Below are positions 9,012-50,032 of a stretch of DNA of 64,000 nucleotides, piece by piece. Made by a program: the position numbers and the translations under genes. The DNA comes from Rhodopirellula bahusiensis (GTDB lineage Bacteria; Planctomycetota; Planctomycetia; Pirellulales; Pirellulaceae), in the NCBI RefSeq assembly GCF_002727185.1, contig NZ_NIZW01000020.1, positions 62,001-126,000 on the forward strand, given 5' to 3'. The stretch's first letter is position 1. The number at the start of each line of letters is the position of its first letter. The notes beneath the pieces are model-generated. The model was not told the DNA's origin and made no database searches. It saw only the letters and a program-made list of their open reading frames with translations.

Positions 9012-9581
9012 ATGTTGGTTCTCACACGAAAAATCGACGAACAAATTGTCATCGGCGACAACATCAAGATCACCGTCATCAAAGTTCGCAACAATCAAGT
9101 TCGGATAGGCATTTCCGCTCCACGTGACGTCCGCGTTCTGCGAGGTGAACTGGAACCAAACGAAACGGAAGCCTCGGAATCAAACGACACGCAATTGGTC
9201 GTTGATCTGGACTTGGAAGATGAAGCAACCCAAAGCCTGCTGAAAACGACCGAAGAGATCGAAACCAGCTACCGCCCTACGGCAGCCAAGAAACCAAGTC
9301 CGTCGGCCGAATCCGTTGCCAAACGCCCTCAGCCATCAGCCGTTGAACGAACGACTCCGATTGCATCCGCTCCAAACAATGCATCGACGAACCGAGTCGG
9401 CCACATGTTGCCATCTGGAAACACATCCAACCGCATGACCGCTGCGATCGATGCAACCGATACGGCTTCCCAAAAGGATGCCAGCCCTGAACTGCGTGTT
9501 TACAGCGGCAAAGTCAGTCGGCGGACCGGTGAAGGATCGCTCAAACGCAGTCCTTTGGCCAATTACTTCACCGCTCCCTGA
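9012..9581 (+). CDS. csrA: Carbon storage regulator CsrA with long C-terminal extension
   Basis: Residues 1-48 are a canonical CsrA: MLVLTRKIDEQIVIGD, then IKITVIKV, VRIGISAPRDVRVLRGEL. It binds GGA-containing hairpins in mRNA leaders to control translation. Normal CsrA proteins have about 60-75 residues; this one has 189. The extra 120 or so residues are rich in Ser, Thr, Pro, Ala and Glu with no hydrophobic core, so probably disordered. A strong AAAGGAAG ribosome-binding site supports the start. The next gene downstream is a sigma-54 response regulator on the same strand, 125 bp away. No fliW or flagellar gene is nearby. Confidence 0.93.
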   Translation: MLVLTRKIDEQIVIGDNIKITVIKVRNNQVRIGISAPRDVRVLRGELEPNETEASESNDTQLVVDLDLEDEATQSLLKTTEEIETSYRPTAAKKPSPSAESVAKRPQPSAVERTTPIASAPNNASTNRVGHMLPSGNTSNRMTAAIDATDTASQKDASPELRVYSGKVSRRTGEGSLKRSPLANYFTAP

Positions 9582-44395: not shown

Positions 44396-45832
44396 CTACC
44401 AATACCCACGCGACTGCGGTGCGTCGCTGGGAACTGGAGCCGATTGAAAGCCGCTGATTCGACCAGAGATTCGCGGTGCGTTTTCGCCGATGGGTTGTCC
44501 CGATTCATCGAACTGTGGCGAACCGGGAATACTTCCGACGGAATCGTTCAGGGTAAGTGGGCCACGCGGCGGTTGCAGCAACCAAAGCATCTCCAACGTC
44601 TGCCCGGACACCGGTACCGACACGCTGTGAGGAGCCGCAAACAGACGCATCAGTTGCGTCGCGGCAATCTGCTGCGGACCGGTCATCACAATTGGCTGGC
44701 CTCCGGCGCACAACATGGTTCCCGGTGGCATCTTTTCAAACCCACGCTGGCTGTTGCACAAGCCTTCCATGGCGAGTTTGCCATCGTACAAATCGAAGTC
44801 GATCGCGATCAAATCAAATTGAAAGTCTTCGGGAACGGCGGTGGACAATTGGCATCCCAAGTCTTCGGCCAATCGCGGCAACAACGATGCCGAGATCCAA
44901 CCGCGAGAAACCTGGACCACTCCGTCCACATCGACCACGCCTCCGCGAACAATCTGGCAACGGTTCAATTGCAACGACGCTTTGCCAACCAAACGGTGCG
45001 GCAAGAACTCAGTCATCCTCGCGAGGTCGATGTTCTCGATCCGAGCGCTGCTGAGATCCAACATCCAGTTCAATCCGCCGGCCCCGCCGCCATATTGATT
45101 GGGTACCTGAGCGAGCTTCGCGGCTCCGTGAAACGTTGCTTCGTCGCCAAGTTTTTGAAACGCGGGATGATAACCAGCCAGCCAAGCCAGCGGTGCGTTC
45201 AGCTCACCCGTCCGCAACGAAACAATCGTCCGAGGTTGAGCCTCATCGCGACGCCGCTTGATTTCGATTTCCATCGGCTCGATGTCCGGACGCTCACCCG
45301 CCAACATGCAACTCAGCATTGCCGTGACCTGTTTCTCGTCCGGCAAAATGGTTCCGTCTAAATCGCGAATCGTGAGCTGCGAATGAGCGGATTGGATGGT
45401 CAGGTCATCAGCCGCCAACCGGATCGGATTCATTGTGTGTTCGGGTCGGCAGAGGAACCGGTCGTGCACCAGCTGCCAAACGTCATCAAGGTACTCTGCA
45501 CGGATCTCGGGTTGGCTCAACCGCACGACGGTTCGATTGTCTTCTTGAACCCAAGAAACAATCCGGATGCGGCCGATCGATTGTTTGGTCTCGTTGTCTC
45601 GCAATTGGACGTCGCCCAGCTGCCACGTCGATGGGCTGACACGTTCGAGCGAACCGATGCGAACATCCAAACCTGTCTGCAAAGCCAGCGAGGCTTCGGT
45701 CGCGAGAACGCATCGACGGTGATACCACGGCGACCACAACACCAAAATGATCAACATCGTCACGCAGGTCGGAACCGCGCAGCAGGCAACGAACAAACTT
45801 CGAGCCACGGCTCGCATCGTCCGTTCGTGCAT
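44396..45832 (-). CDS. AsmA-like single-anchor protein of unknown function
   Basis: 478 residues. A single N-terminal transmembrane helix (about 18-37) is followed by a long periplasmic part of repeating beta strands: LQTGLDVRIGSLERVSPSTW, LGDVQLRD and similar segments resemble the opening of AsmA-type proteins, where LEVRIGxxxxxxxG is common. Such proteins may move lipids to the outer membrane. The match is weak, so I call it AsmA-like only. It converges on the ABC permease gene; the gap is 16 bp. An ATG at 45817 is an equal start choice. Confidence 0.65.
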   Translation of the reverse strand: MHERTMRAVARSLFVACCAVPTCVTMLIILVLWSPWYHRRCVLATEASLALQTGLDVRIGSLERVSPSTWQLGDVQLRDNETKQSIGRIRIVSWVQEDNRTVVRLSQPEIRAEYLDDVWQLVHDRFLCRPEHTMNPIRLAADDLTIQSAHSQLTIRDLDGTILPDEKQVTAMLSCMLAGERPDIEPMEIEIKRRRDEAQPRTIVSLRTGELNAPLAWLAGYHPAFQKLGDEATFHGAAKLAQVPNQYGGGAGGLNWMLDLSSARIENIDLARMTEFLPHRLVGKASLQLNRCQIVRGGVVDVDGVVQVSRGWISASLLPRLAEDLGCQLSTAVPEDFQFDLIAIDFDLYDGKLAMEGLCNSQRGFEKMPPGTMLCAGGQPIVMTGPQQIAATQLMRLFAAPHSVSVPVSGQTLEMLWLLQPPRGPLTLNDSVGSIPGSPQFDESGQPIGENAPRISGRISGFQSAPVPSDAPQSRGYW

Positions 45833-46271
45833 TCGGCGAATCCTTCGCGCTGCATGTGCTGGGTTGACGAAAACGTTTTCTCAACGAGGCATCGCGTCCG
45901 CCGCCATCGATGGCTGGCATCCGCGTTAGGCAATTTGCCGATTGGCTTTTGAGACCTCGTTGAGTCTCCGTTTCACGATTGCGACCATACTCAACTCGTT
46001 CCGCGAAAGGACAGATCGAAACGGGCTGGATTTTGTTTCGGTGGACGACCATTTCACGCTCGCAAACCATCGTGAAACTCGTCTTCGCGAGGTTCGCTCA
46101 AACAAGAAACGAAGAAGTCGTGAAACTGACGTGAGAAGAAACCATCTTTTGCTCAGGCATCAAAATTCAACCTACACGCGGGATAGCCCTCACCACGATG
46201 GAAGCGAATGCTGGCGAGAGGCTTGCTAGCATTCAAACGAACAATCCAGTGGGCACAACTCCGGCCAGAAT
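45833..46271. other. Intergenic region between two leftward genes
   Basis: About 439 bp with no supported gene. An imperfect hairpin (GAATGCTGGC and GCTAGCATTC, near 46207-46235) lies just after the glycosyltransferase stop and may mark its 3' end; it has no T-tract. Nothing else is seen. Confidence 0.4.
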
Positions 46272-47156
46272 TCATCGACGAAGCAAGCCGTAGCGGAAGA
46301 TGCATCCGAGAGCAGCGACGCCATCACGCCAACCGATCTTTTTGCCTTCGTCGTACCAACGATGGTGATAGCGAATCGGCCGTTCCGTGAAACGCAGATT
46401 CTTTCTGGCCCAACGTGCCGTCACTTCGATCTCGATTCCGAATCGATTTTCTTTCAGCTTTGGCAGGATGTCCAAAAAGTTTTCACGGCTAGCCATCTTG
46501 TAACAGGTCTCGACGTCACTCAGCCGCGGACCAATCGCGACACTGGCCAACCACGAGATGAACCCGTTGACGGCTTGGTGCCACCAAGGAGAGACCTGGC
46601 GGTCGCAATGGCCGTAACGCGTGCCGTAAACCACGTCGGCTTCACCAGCCAACAATGGCTGCAACATGACCCGAAAGTCACCTGGATCGTATTCGCTGTC
46701 GGCATCCTGAATCACGATCACGTCGCCTTCCGCCGCTTCAATGGCAGTGCGGATTGCCGCACCTTTGCCACGGTTTTCGGGATGACGAAGCAACGTGACT
46801 TGGTGGTCATTTTGACATTGTTCGAGGGTTTCCCCTGAGCCATCGTTCGATCCGTCGTCGACCACGATGATTTGCATCGGTAGTCCGGTGTTGCGCAGTG
46901 AGTTGAGCACCGATTCAACGGTGGAGCATTCGTTGTAGACAGGAACGATCACCGACAAACGAAACTGATCTGGCAGCGGATAGATCGAAAGCGCGCGACA
47001 AGCATCGGGGCCAATCGTTTGACGCATGCGAGCAACGTATTCGTCGCTGAACCAATAGCCGGGATCAACGGCTGAATCGACACCCAATGACGGGGGATTC
47101 AATTGCGGTTGCGATTCGTCCGATACGACATCGGAAGGCGCATTCAATTCGTTCAC
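46272..47156 (-). CDS. Family 2 glycosyltransferase (dolichol-phosphate-mannose-synthase-like)
   Basis: 294 residues. After a 65-residue non-conserved N-terminus comes the GT-A fold: LSVIVPVYNECSTVESV, IIVVDDGSNDGS (the Asp pair), NRGKGAAIRTAI and the metal-binding IQDADSEYDP. The C-terminal KENRFGIEIEVTARWARKNLRF and a HHRWYDEGKKIGWRDG segment match DPM1-like bacterial enzymes that make polyprenyl-phosphate sugars or lipids. No transmembrane helices of the GtrB type are seen. Confidence 0.92.
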   Translation of the reverse strand: MNELNAPSDVVSDESQPQLNPPSLGVDSAVDPGYWFSDEYVARMRQTIGPDACRALSIYPLPDQFRLSVIVPVYNECSTVESVLNSLRNTGLPMQIIVVDDGSNDGSGETLEQCQNDHQVTLLRHPENRGKGAAIRTAIEAAEGDVIVIQDADSEYDPGDFRVMLQPLLAGEADVVYGTRYGHCDRQVSPWWHQAVNGFISWLASVAIGPRLSDVETCYKMASRENFLDILPKLKENRFGIEIEVTARWARKNLRFTERPIRYHHRWYDEGKKIGWRDGVAALGCIFRYGLLRR

Positions 47157-47419
47157 GTGCGTTCACCGGATGTTGCATCAACGACTGAAACGTCATCGAG
47201 TTCGTCCTTCGGACAACATGCAACAACAAAGAAAAGGAAACCTGTTTGCGCACATCATACGACACTTCGCATCGTCGATGTTGTTGCTTCGCATCCACGA
47301 ATGGAAGTGAGTTGCTTCCCAAGTTGGTTGACAAAAAAAACTTCACTCGAACGAGTCGCATTTTCCAATGTCAAATCAATCGACCGGTCGACGCGAATGA
47401 TTTTTTGATGACTTTGTTG

Positions 47420-47448
47420 TTGACATTGATCGACCGTCACGCCAAATT
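47420..47448 (+). promoter_or_regulatory. Possible sigma-70-type promoter
   Basis: TTGACA at 47420-47425, then 17 bp, then CAAATT at 47443-47448. The -35 box is perfect, the -10 box matches at three of six positions. The spacing is ideal, and the site lies upstream of the first terminator of this region. Confidence 0.3.
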
Positions 47449-47566
47449 TTCGCTCGCTTGACCCACACATCTTCGATCCCCACACACACTTGTGCGGCGG
47501 TTGCATTGAACGTTCTGTTCAACCGATTGTGGTCGATGATTTGTCTCTTCTAACGGAGTGTGTTCG

Positions 47567-47671
47567 ATGCGGTTTGCCAGAGTTCCTTTTCAGTCTGTCA
47601 ATCACCGATCGCCCCACACTTTCTTCGACGTTTCCCCTTGGCAAGCGGGGTCGCCATCCGGCGTCATTTGA
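47567..47671 (+). CDS. Possible 34-residue small protein
   Basis: An ATG is preceded by ACGGAG nine bases upstream and opens 34 codons (MRFARVPFQSVNH... to ...SGVI), ending 29 bp before a strong terminator. Composition is basic and proline/serine-rich, with no membrane helix. This could be a real small gene or a chance frame within a small RNA. No family is recognised. Confidence 0.2.
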   Translation: MRFARVPFQSVNHRSPHTFFDVSPWQAGSPSGVI

Positions 47672-47700
47672 TTGACTCGGCATTTTTCCATTGACTAAAT

Positions 47701-47728
47701 CATGGCGAAGGGCCTCGCCATGTTTTTG
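47701..47728 (+). terminator. Rho-independent terminator 1 in the mdh upstream region
   Basis: CATGGCGA (47701-47708) pairs perfectly with TCGCCATG (47715-47722) over the six-base loop AGGGCC, directly followed by TTTTTG. The T-tract is on the plus strand only. No annotated plus-strand gene ends upstream, so it must serve a small RNA, a small gene or a leader. Confidence 0.8.
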
Positions 47729-47949
47729 TTCGTCACAACGATTGTGAACGATTCACGGGAGACGGTTTGGACTCCACGTCGTCGCTTCATTGCTTCGATT
47801 GACACGGACGTCACTCCCTTCATTTCGATGTTGCCCAACGATGCTTCTTGATTTCTCTCACGCAATCAAGGTGCATTGGTGAACTTGAATTCCGATCGCC
47901 GACAAGGATTGTTTGCATCGGGTAACAATTTGAATTGGTAGCACAGCGA

Positions 47950-47987
47950 AGCCAGTTTTGCATGAAGCAAAACTGGCTCGTTTTTTT
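47950..47987 (+). terminator. Rho-independent terminator 2 in the mdh upstream region
   Basis: AGCCAGTTTTGC (47950-47961) pairs perfectly with GCAAAACTGGCT (47967-47978) around ATGAA, then CG and seven T. A very strong plus-strand terminator. It stands 260 bp before the mdh start and 222 bp after terminator 1. Confidence 0.88.
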
Positions 47988-48009
47988 ATCTTCGCGTTCA
48001 CTCGCACGA

Positions 48010-48071
48010 AGGACGTTTTCTCACGTCCTGCAAACCCCAAAATTCACGGTCCGCTTGCAGACCGTAGAATT
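48010..48071 (+). promoter_or_regulatory. Tandem hairpins in the mdh leader
   Basis: AGGACGT (48010-48016) pairs with ACGTCCT (48023-48029); 11 bp later AATTCACGGTC (48041-48051) pairs with GACCGTAGAATT (48060-48071) with one bulged base. Both lie between terminator 2 and the mdh start and could form part of a regulatory leader. Confidence 0.45.
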
Positions 48072-48169
48072 GAGGCTCAAAGCAGCGCCACCTCTGCCGA
48101 TCGAGGAATCGCGGCTGCCGCCATTTTGCGGGCTGGTTGGCCACAAACGCCGCACCCGTGCCCTCTTGA

Positions 48170-49195
<1,026 letters not shown>

Positions 49196-49271
49196 CGATG
49201 AGAATCTGAATGCTATGAAGTATTCGGATGGATCGCACCAGATAGGCTGATTTGACAATCGCCAACGGATC

Positions 49272-49297
49272 AATCCGCCAGTTTTGTCTGGCGGGTT
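49272..49297 (+). terminator. Hairpin terminator after mdh
   Basis: AATCCGCCAG pairs with CTGGCGGGTT around a six-base TTTTGT loop, 77 bp after the mdh stop. The following bases (GCCTTCTCTCTTT) are only partly T-rich, so termination may be moderate. Confidence 0.55.
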
Positions 49298-49393
49298 GCC
49301 TTCTCTCTTTCCGTTGATCGGTTAACCTAGACTGGCCCGCCCCCGTCGAGGGAGCGGTCTCCCATTCGCTTGAATCTCCTCGGAGCCTTCCCG

Positions 49394-50032
49394 ATGAAAC
49401 GCAGTTGTTTCCACCTTTTGATGGCTGCCGCGTTGGCTGTCGTTTCCGTCTCGGCCCACGCCCAAGACGAAGAACTTCCCAAGGCATCGCCCGCGAAAGC
49501 CGAACCGACCAAGGCGGCTCCGGTTCAAGACGCAGGCCTATCGTCCAAGGCTCGGCCACTCAGTGTGACCGTTGGTTTGGTCAACGATTCCAAAATCGAA
49601 GGCACGCTGACCGACACGACTCAGTTGCAAATGCAAACGTCGTTTGGCACCGCCAGCATTCCGTTGTCGGAAGTTGCCGGCATCCGATTCGCCTCTGCCA
49701 ACGACGCGACCACCACCGTCGTCATGCTCAATGGTGACTCGATCACCGGAGCAACAGACGTCAAACTCATCACGGTCGAAACCGAATGGGGCACGGCGTC
49801 GATCAATGGACCCAGCATCGCGTCGCTGATGTTTGTTCCCGGCCTCAGCTGGAACCCATCCGACGGGCTAAATGGAAAACGCTGGAACCTCAGCGACATC
49901 CAAAAGAAGGACACTCCCCAACGCCCTTCGACGAATCCATCGAATACCCCGAGCACTCGTCCATCTGGCACACAACGTCCCGCGGCTGTCAGCACACCAT
50001 CGTTCAATCAACCGTTCTTTCCGAACCGGTGA
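49394..50032 (+). CDS. Secreted protein of unknown function
   Basis: 212 residues from ATG at 49394. A clean signal peptide (MKRSCFHLLMAAALAVVSVSAHAQ) is followed by a short low-complexity segment rich in K, A and P. A beta-rich domain (about 50-140) contains VTVGLVNDSKIEGTLTD, a G-rich strand pattern ending in GVRFAS-like AGIRFASAND and LNGDSITGATDVKLITVETEWG. The tail is Ser/Thr/Pro/Asn-rich. The domain has the look of the LSm-like or 'DUF' beta barrel used in planctomycete exported proteins, but I do not assign a family. Confidence 0.7.
   Translation: MKRSCFHLLMAAALAVVSVSAHAQDEELPKASPAKAEPTKAAPVQDAGLSSKARPLSVTVGLVNDSKIEGTLTDTTQLQMQTSFGTASIPLSEVAGIRFASANDATTTVVMLNGDSITGATDVKLITVETEWGTASINGPSIASLMFVPGLSWNPSDGLNGKRWNLSDIQKKDTPQRPSTNPSNTPSTRPSGTQRPAAVSTPSFNQPFFPNR

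Follow-up and report, generated by a model that had tools for sequence, protein, structure and literature searches.

The gap between a family 2 glycosyltransferase (GT2) gene and mdh in the window, by which we mean the whole 64-kb stretch of DNA analysed, holds an element which we conclude, with high confidence, to be an independent conserved RNA gene and not a leader of mdh. The element is conserved, is independent of mdh, contains a covarying fold and matches CsrA-type motifs far above chance. Its transcription, and the binding and titration of CsrA by its product, are predicted from sequence, and the proposal that the RNA is a sponge titrating CsrA is one to which we would give slightly less than an even chance.

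Architecture of the locus and its relation to mdh

The GT2 and mdh genes are separated by 1,091 bases in the window, in agreement with an earlier description, made from the sequence alone, of some 1.1 kb without a clear protein gene. None of five ORFs tested in the gap (61, 49, 60, 86 and 101 aa) gave a Pfam match at E<=0.001, and a protein gene at this place was dropped as a candidate. The features of the locus are as follows.

46272-47156, minus strand: GT2 gene, the divergent and constant neighbour (PF00535, 1.1e-36)
47331-47395, plus strand: box rich in A-tracts and T-tracts upstream of the promoter, possible UP element
47413-47448, plus strand: putative promoter TTTGTTGTTGACA, with -35 TTGACA at 47420-47425, a 17-nt spacer and CAAATT at 47443-47448
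47455-47987, plus strand: predicted transcript of ~530 nt
47553-47558, plus strand: Shine-Dalgarno-like ACGGAG, which is also an ANGGA; GGAGTG precedes the ATG in 13/13 congeners
47567-47671, plus strand: short ORF of 34 aa (MRFARVPFQSVNHRSPHTFFDVSPWQAGSPSGVI); an ORF is found here in 13/13 congeners, with differing peptides
47701-47722, plus strand: hairpin 1 ('terminator 1'), perfect 8-bp stem, then TTTTTGTT, with the T run at 47723-47727
47731-47750, plus strand: hairpin 2, CGTCACAACGATTGTGAACG, with 96.7% of cells paired in 13 congeners
47757-47818, plus strand: three-way-junction core, with P1 (GGGAG/CUCCC), P2 with a GGA loop (GGA at 47769-47771), P3 and P4
47800-47813, plus strand: P4 mini-hairpin TGAC[ACGGAC]GTCA, with the decamer ACACGGACGT at 47802-47811
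47902-47912, plus strand: 3' hairpin loop ACAAGGATTGT, a further GGA site whose GGA is aligned in the genus alignment
47950-47986/47987, plus strand: terminator 2, perfect 12-bp stem (47950-47978), then CGTTTTTTT
48248-49195, plus strand: mdh, ~260 nt downstream of the RNA

The promoter candidate previously proposed at 47420 has an exact TTGACA at 47420-47425, and the 13-genome alignment of the genus shows TTTGTTGTTGAC in all members, followed by the 17-nt spacer and CAAATT or a similar sequence as the putative -10 element; transcription would be expected to start near 47455. TT[GC]TTGAC was likewise found 268-424 nt before the match of model R1 (built from 13 sequences) in 26 of 28 listed loci, L140 and L148 being the exceptions. 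The box at 47331-47395, in which the alignment retains, as judged by eye, an A-tract and then CTTC and T-rich blocks, is possibly an UP element.

The region was matched in nine of the 40 genomes searched, including its own, and the match extends slightly past terminator 2 in five congeners. Identity to these five was 71-100% in the tabulated stretches of 47455-47978, as against 24-47% in 47996-48137, and two additional hairpins that had been reported at 48010-48071, while present (48010-48029, 7 bp; 48046-48065, 6 bp), consequently fall outside the conserved element. The segment preceding the short ORF (47455-47566) is 93-96% identical in four close congeners, slightly above the 90-93% of the ORF itself, and may for this reason hold a structure of its own.

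Across the 13 genomes the elements follow one order, namely promoter, Shine-Dalgarno-like site and ATG of the short ORF, hairpin 1, hairpin 2, core and terminator. The two perfect plus-strand hairpins with T tails were found where the sequence-only reading had placed them, with stems of 8 and 12 bp. A loose terminator scan of 45000-50000 showed no excess (seven found, 6.3 expected), and a stricter script (perfect stem of at least 6 bp, at least five T within the next eight bases) returned four sites on the two strands of the 64 kb, the longest two stems being those of hairpin 1 and terminator 2. An 11-pair terminator-like hairpin at 49271-49298 (plus strand), shortly 3' of the mdh stop codon, is probably the terminator of mdh. 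Terminator 2 has changed in sequence among the congeners with its stem and T run kept (13-genome alignment, by eye), a crude script detected a terminator after the core in eight of 16 representatives, and in the window a free-standing transcript with an intrinsic terminator is predicted.

It had been suggested that the region encodes one or two small RNAs ending at these hairpins. A single RNA accords with the conserved promoter, body and final terminator and with the covarying fold, while the existence of two is doubtful, since relatives carry hairpins of other sequence at the position of hairpin 1 in the same order of elements, and the T run is confined to the six genomes of the window's clade (both by eye). 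Two separate RNAs with ends at 47728 and 47987 would account for the perfect stem and T run of hairpin 1 in that clade; given that this T run is absent in the other seven congeners and that no separate conserved promoter was seen by eye between hairpin 1 and the core, we regard them as very improbable. Hairpin 1 is probably structural, because its T run is missing in those seven congeners.

The alternative of an mdh gene under attenuation control, with the element as its long 5' leader, derives from the position of mdh in the window, some 260 nt downstream on the same strand, and from its downstream position in six of the 13 congeners. Both GT2 and mdh are present in all 13 genomes of the genus; in the other seven mdh lies elsewhere and the element stays upstream of GT2, from which it is divergent throughout the 13 congeners, as it is in other genera. 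The RNA and GT2 were adjacent and divergent in 41 of the 42 genomes that have both the RNA and an entered GT2 place; in the remaining one the two are on different contigs, the RNA being at the end of its own. This count draws on 80 GT2 places, with upstream stretches taken from 60 genomes outside the genus; 56 of the 80 were entered, and none of the other 24 comes from a genome listed as having the RNA. The downstream gene changes from genome to genome while the GT2 side is constant, and among 16 representatives, 11 had the longest frame of the 2.6 kb downstream of the RNA on the opposite strand (frames only). The RNA is therefore not located upstream of, and co-oriented with, one and the same gene, and the sequence-only proposal of an mdh leader, which we now consider scarcely credible, falls: the RNA keeps GT2 while its downstream neighbour changes. 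A lactate/malate dehydrogenase paralogue lies beside the RNA in L082 (genome G005) and L085 (G007); it is convergent to the RNA and distant from the mdh of the window (33% identity), which speaks against a leader role there too, and although it belongs to the same enzyme family its position is probably a coincidence.

A covarying three-way junction and its distribution

The core was analysed in an alignment (A6) of 33 of the 35 matches, from which L153, a near-duplicate of L152, and L118, on account of its register, were left out; the 34 rows of the P4 count given below include L118 in corrected register. A6 supports P1, P2 and P3, with 91.8% of cells paired in comparison to 43-51% when the helices were slid, a control that favours the structure as the fold was drawn from the same sequences. 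Two-sided changes occurred in 10 of the 14 core pairs and in 66 cells (20 when shuffled), and the covariation score was 0.424 (0.209 when shuffled); none of 500 shuffles reached any of these three values or the share of paired cells. The number of further pair types was not above that of the shuffles (471/500). Covariation was weaker within the genus alone, where five pairs showed two-sided changes (70/500 shuffles), and the six rows from the window's clade have not retained P2. When four cores were folded alone, that of G003 displayed the full model and those of the window, L098 and L134 did not. The first pair of helix 5 of the genus model was dropped as it breaks in other genera, its two inner pairs remaining as P4. 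Hairpin 2 often has a GGAU loop in other genera (by eye). The check by covariance models that had been recommended for conservation and hairpin covariation was thereby borne out, in that the region is conserved, the core covaries and the models match relatives.

Model R1 matched three of 296 genomes of the order, these being its own and two members of other genera of the family, in both of which the match lies beside GT2. Applied to 62 loci (the 60 GT2-upstream stretches and the two loci already matched by R1), it matched 22 times (16 matches at E<=0.005, six at E 0.02-0.2), always on the strand opposite to GT2. Among 241 family genomes the core model, R2, had matches at E<=0.05 in 60, of which four (E 0.008-0.04) are no more than chance would give; the other 56, in nine genera, match at E<=3e-4 and comprise 33 genomes that had built the model and 23 further ones. 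Among the best 20 candidates scored per genome, each of these 56 had one R2 match, apart from a fragment at a contig end in G461. A search of 24 more GT2-upstream loci with the filters turned off yielded 15 matches at E<=2 (E 0.001-1.1), spread over 13 loci, and in 12 of the 24 loci a match had the strand and distance expected of the RNA; the matches that did not fit were those in L150, the second in L144 and the minus-strand one in L166.

Over 392 genomes of the phylum, R2 gave six matches at E<=0.01 and nothing above chance outside the family: two were the own genome and a family member, and the other four (E 2.6e-4 to 0.009) are taken as chance in view of the 0.01 x 392 expected. The best of these, in G668, was rejected as noise, its 4,645-base locus containing no TT[GC]TTGAC. 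The RNA gene appears, on these figures, to be limited to part of the family, which we take to be Pirellulaceae.

Known RNAs were considered as candidates. The window had no Rfam match at the gathering score, and neither did 17 related loci (nine searched at E<=0.5 and eight at E<=1); four weak matches (E 0.56-2.8) were taken as chance, and no known Rfam RNA was matched. 6S RNA was likewise discarded, RF00013 being absent in the own genome, while the control search was positive in five of 14 genomes.

CsrA-type sites, the short ORF and candidate functions

P4 contains ANGGA in all 34 rows, N being A, C, G or U, and mostly reads C-[ANGGAN]-G. At least two closing pairs are possible in 33 rows, the closing pair is C-G in 32, and 18 carry the perfect decamer [AU]CANGGANG[UA]. 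The CsrA SELEX consensus is RUACARGGAUGU, mostly in six-base loops with AC pairing with GU (PMC7652899), and the RsmZ loop is ANGGAN (PMC3791407); at the level of its letters, the P4 motif is the CsrA/RsmE consensus as published. A GGA is also present in the P2 loop in 33/33 rows, 31-41 nt before that of P4, and the further 3' site at 47902-47912 lies in a predicted hairpin loop (unpaired 0.9).

The perfect decamer was found in 31 of 35 transcripts (in P4 in 18 and further 3' in 13), compared to a mean of 1.4 and a maximum of five in shuffled transcripts, a comparison that overstates independence as the transcripts share ancestry. It was found in none of the 35 on the antisense strand, and one is present in about 3% of the window's 538-nt stretches. 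The ends of the 22 transcripts from outside the genus were placed at fixed distances from the core. Among the 17 transcripts that lack a perfect decamer in P4, 13 have one further 3', and 12 of these 13 lie inside a predicted hairpin loop. ANGGA occurs two to seven times per transcript (three in the window, 1.4 expected). The full decamer is clearly enriched, unlike GGA as a whole, which was not enriched in the window transcript (five, 7.5 expected); E. coli CsrB has 22 GGA (PMC7652899).

Based on these motifs, the following mechanism may be proposed: (i) the independent RNA gene would give rise to a transcript of ~530 nt ending at the 47950-47987 terminator; (ii) the three-way junction would offer GGA in the loops of P2 and P4, with a further GGA hairpin located 3'; (iii) a CsrA dimer would grip two of these three GGA loops; (iv) by titration, the RNA would keep one or more of six CsrA-domain proteins from mRNAs, in the manner of CsrB/RsmZ of gammaproteobacteria; and (v) the Shine-Dalgarno-like ACGGAG could allow CsrA to control the embedded short ORF as well. 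The sponge reading is weakened by full-length single-sequence folds, which place no perfect P4 decamer, out of 18, in a hairpin loop; in the fold of the window, the GGA of P4 and that of the Shine-Dalgarno-like site are largely base-paired (unpaired 0.1), leaving the 3' loop as the one open site.

These folds would also suit a structured non-coding RNA whose core binds a partner other than CsrA, be it another protein, a metabolite or mRNAs by pairing, with the GGA loops as part of the fold. Conservation and covariation do not name a partner, the sites are few for a sponge, P4 is closed in the single-sequence folds, and the conserved unpaired bases of the junction would also befit an aptamer. 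Conservation falls, however, on an ANGGA whose N is free and which adjoins C-G closing pairs, and a perfect decamer is carried elsewhere by 13 of the 17 transcripts that lack it in P4, on which grounds we rate a non-CsrA partner as unlikely, albeit with some weight.

Regarding the proteins that a sponge would address, the own genome has six CsrA-domain matches, with one CsrA copy at G000:C7:220913-221068, and one FliW, whose presence counts against the sponge reading as FliW too antagonises CsrA; the best CsrA copy keeps L4 and R44 by our own reading of its sequence, residues which we presume to have the roles attributed to them. One CsrA-domain match lies in the window itself (9012-9581, plus strand), at the start of a 189-aa ORF with a long C-terminal extension. 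Since csrA was found in all 241 family genomes, a comparison of its presence or absence with that of the RNA tests nothing. The fliW gene (G000:C6:256399-256740) is close to a csrA (257260-257415), and FliW may for this reason control one CsrA copy too; according to a proposal made in one survey, control of CsrA in Planctomycetes may be exerted through FliW (PMC4682653). One crude look at 47001-47430 of the window found no match to a GacA/UvrY-type box pattern.

The short ORF raises the possibility that the transcript is an mRNA for a small protein (ORFs of ~23-65 aa), with CsrA perhaps acting at ACGGAG and the 3' structure stabilising or regulating the message, or that it has a mixed mRNA-plus-sponge role. 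The Shine-Dalgarno-like site and ATG in 13/13 congeners point this way, and the site is similar in several loci of other genera. In six congeners outside the window's clade, the last 13 codons and stop (SFQRQ[CS]LWxS[ST]R) differ at 27, 41 and 94 places at codon positions 1-3, with 79 synonymous and 36 non-synonymous changes (9 and 13 synonymous in the shifted frames), a coding signature at the 3' end of the ORF. The ORF of g44/g46 also gives a weak signature (14, 21, 27; 20 synonymous, 30 non-synonymous), with MRxPxD..GSPP-like peptides, which favours the mRNA by their likeness and counts against it by the weakness of the signature. Further against it, a coding signature was absent both at the start of the ORF in five of the six congeners (32, 14, 23; 15 synonymous, 38 non-synonymous) and throughout the ORF of the window's clade (34, 24, 34; 21 synonymous, 58 non-synonymous), the peptides do not align across clades and L140 has no convincing start. 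In genus g35 (L133, L135, L137, L132) the ORF may start at a GTG after GGAGACGTTTTGTC, giving a different peptide. A small-protein mRNA is accordingly improbable as the main role; in one clade the peptide is likely to be translated, and in the window it is no more than a possible product.

Relation to known regulatory RNAs

Searches of the literature on Rhodopirellula and planctomycete small RNAs, CsrA in Planctomycetes and Rhodopirellula-1 returned no title on this RNA, which is weak evidence of novelty as most subscription papers fell outside their scope. A term search of PMC5568370, on the prediction of small RNAs of the RsmA pathway, found no mention of Planctomycetes. The Rhodopirellula-1 motif (Weinberg 2010, PMC2864571) is entered in a table as cis-regulatory 'y', from Proteobacteria and Planctomycetes, and without an Rfam number; judged by that table row, it resembles the present RNA in being a candidate structured RNA from Planctomycetes.

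Whatever its partner, the RNA is a conserved structured RNA without an Rfam match in a group for which few small RNAs are annotated, a table in PMC9029176 giving eight for the whole PVC group. If the sponge reading is correct, RNA control of CsrA extends beyond the gammaproteobacterial systems and a structured scaffold replaces many repeats. A more specific form of this reading is an antagonist of CsrA with an origin independent of CsrB/RsmZ, in which a junction with two GGA loops would serve each dimer and a dual-function transcript would provide a short peptide in some clades, acting beside FliW; we hold this doubtful.

Dual mRNA/sRNA transcripts, of which SgrS is one type, resemble the RNA described here in combining a short ORF with regulatory RNA parts in one transcript, whereas here the ORF lacks conservation at the protein level in the window's clade. 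A CsrA-bound flagellin mRNA of dual function is described in Campylobacter (PMC4894983). In comparison to CsrB/CsrC and RsmX/Y/Z, the present RNA occurs in planctomycetes and not in gammaproteobacteria, has no Rfam match, offers fewer sites and contains a covarying three-way junction and an embedded short ORF, while sharing with them an RNA gene that ends in a terminator, ANGGA(N) next to C-G closing pairs and a genome that encodes CsrA.
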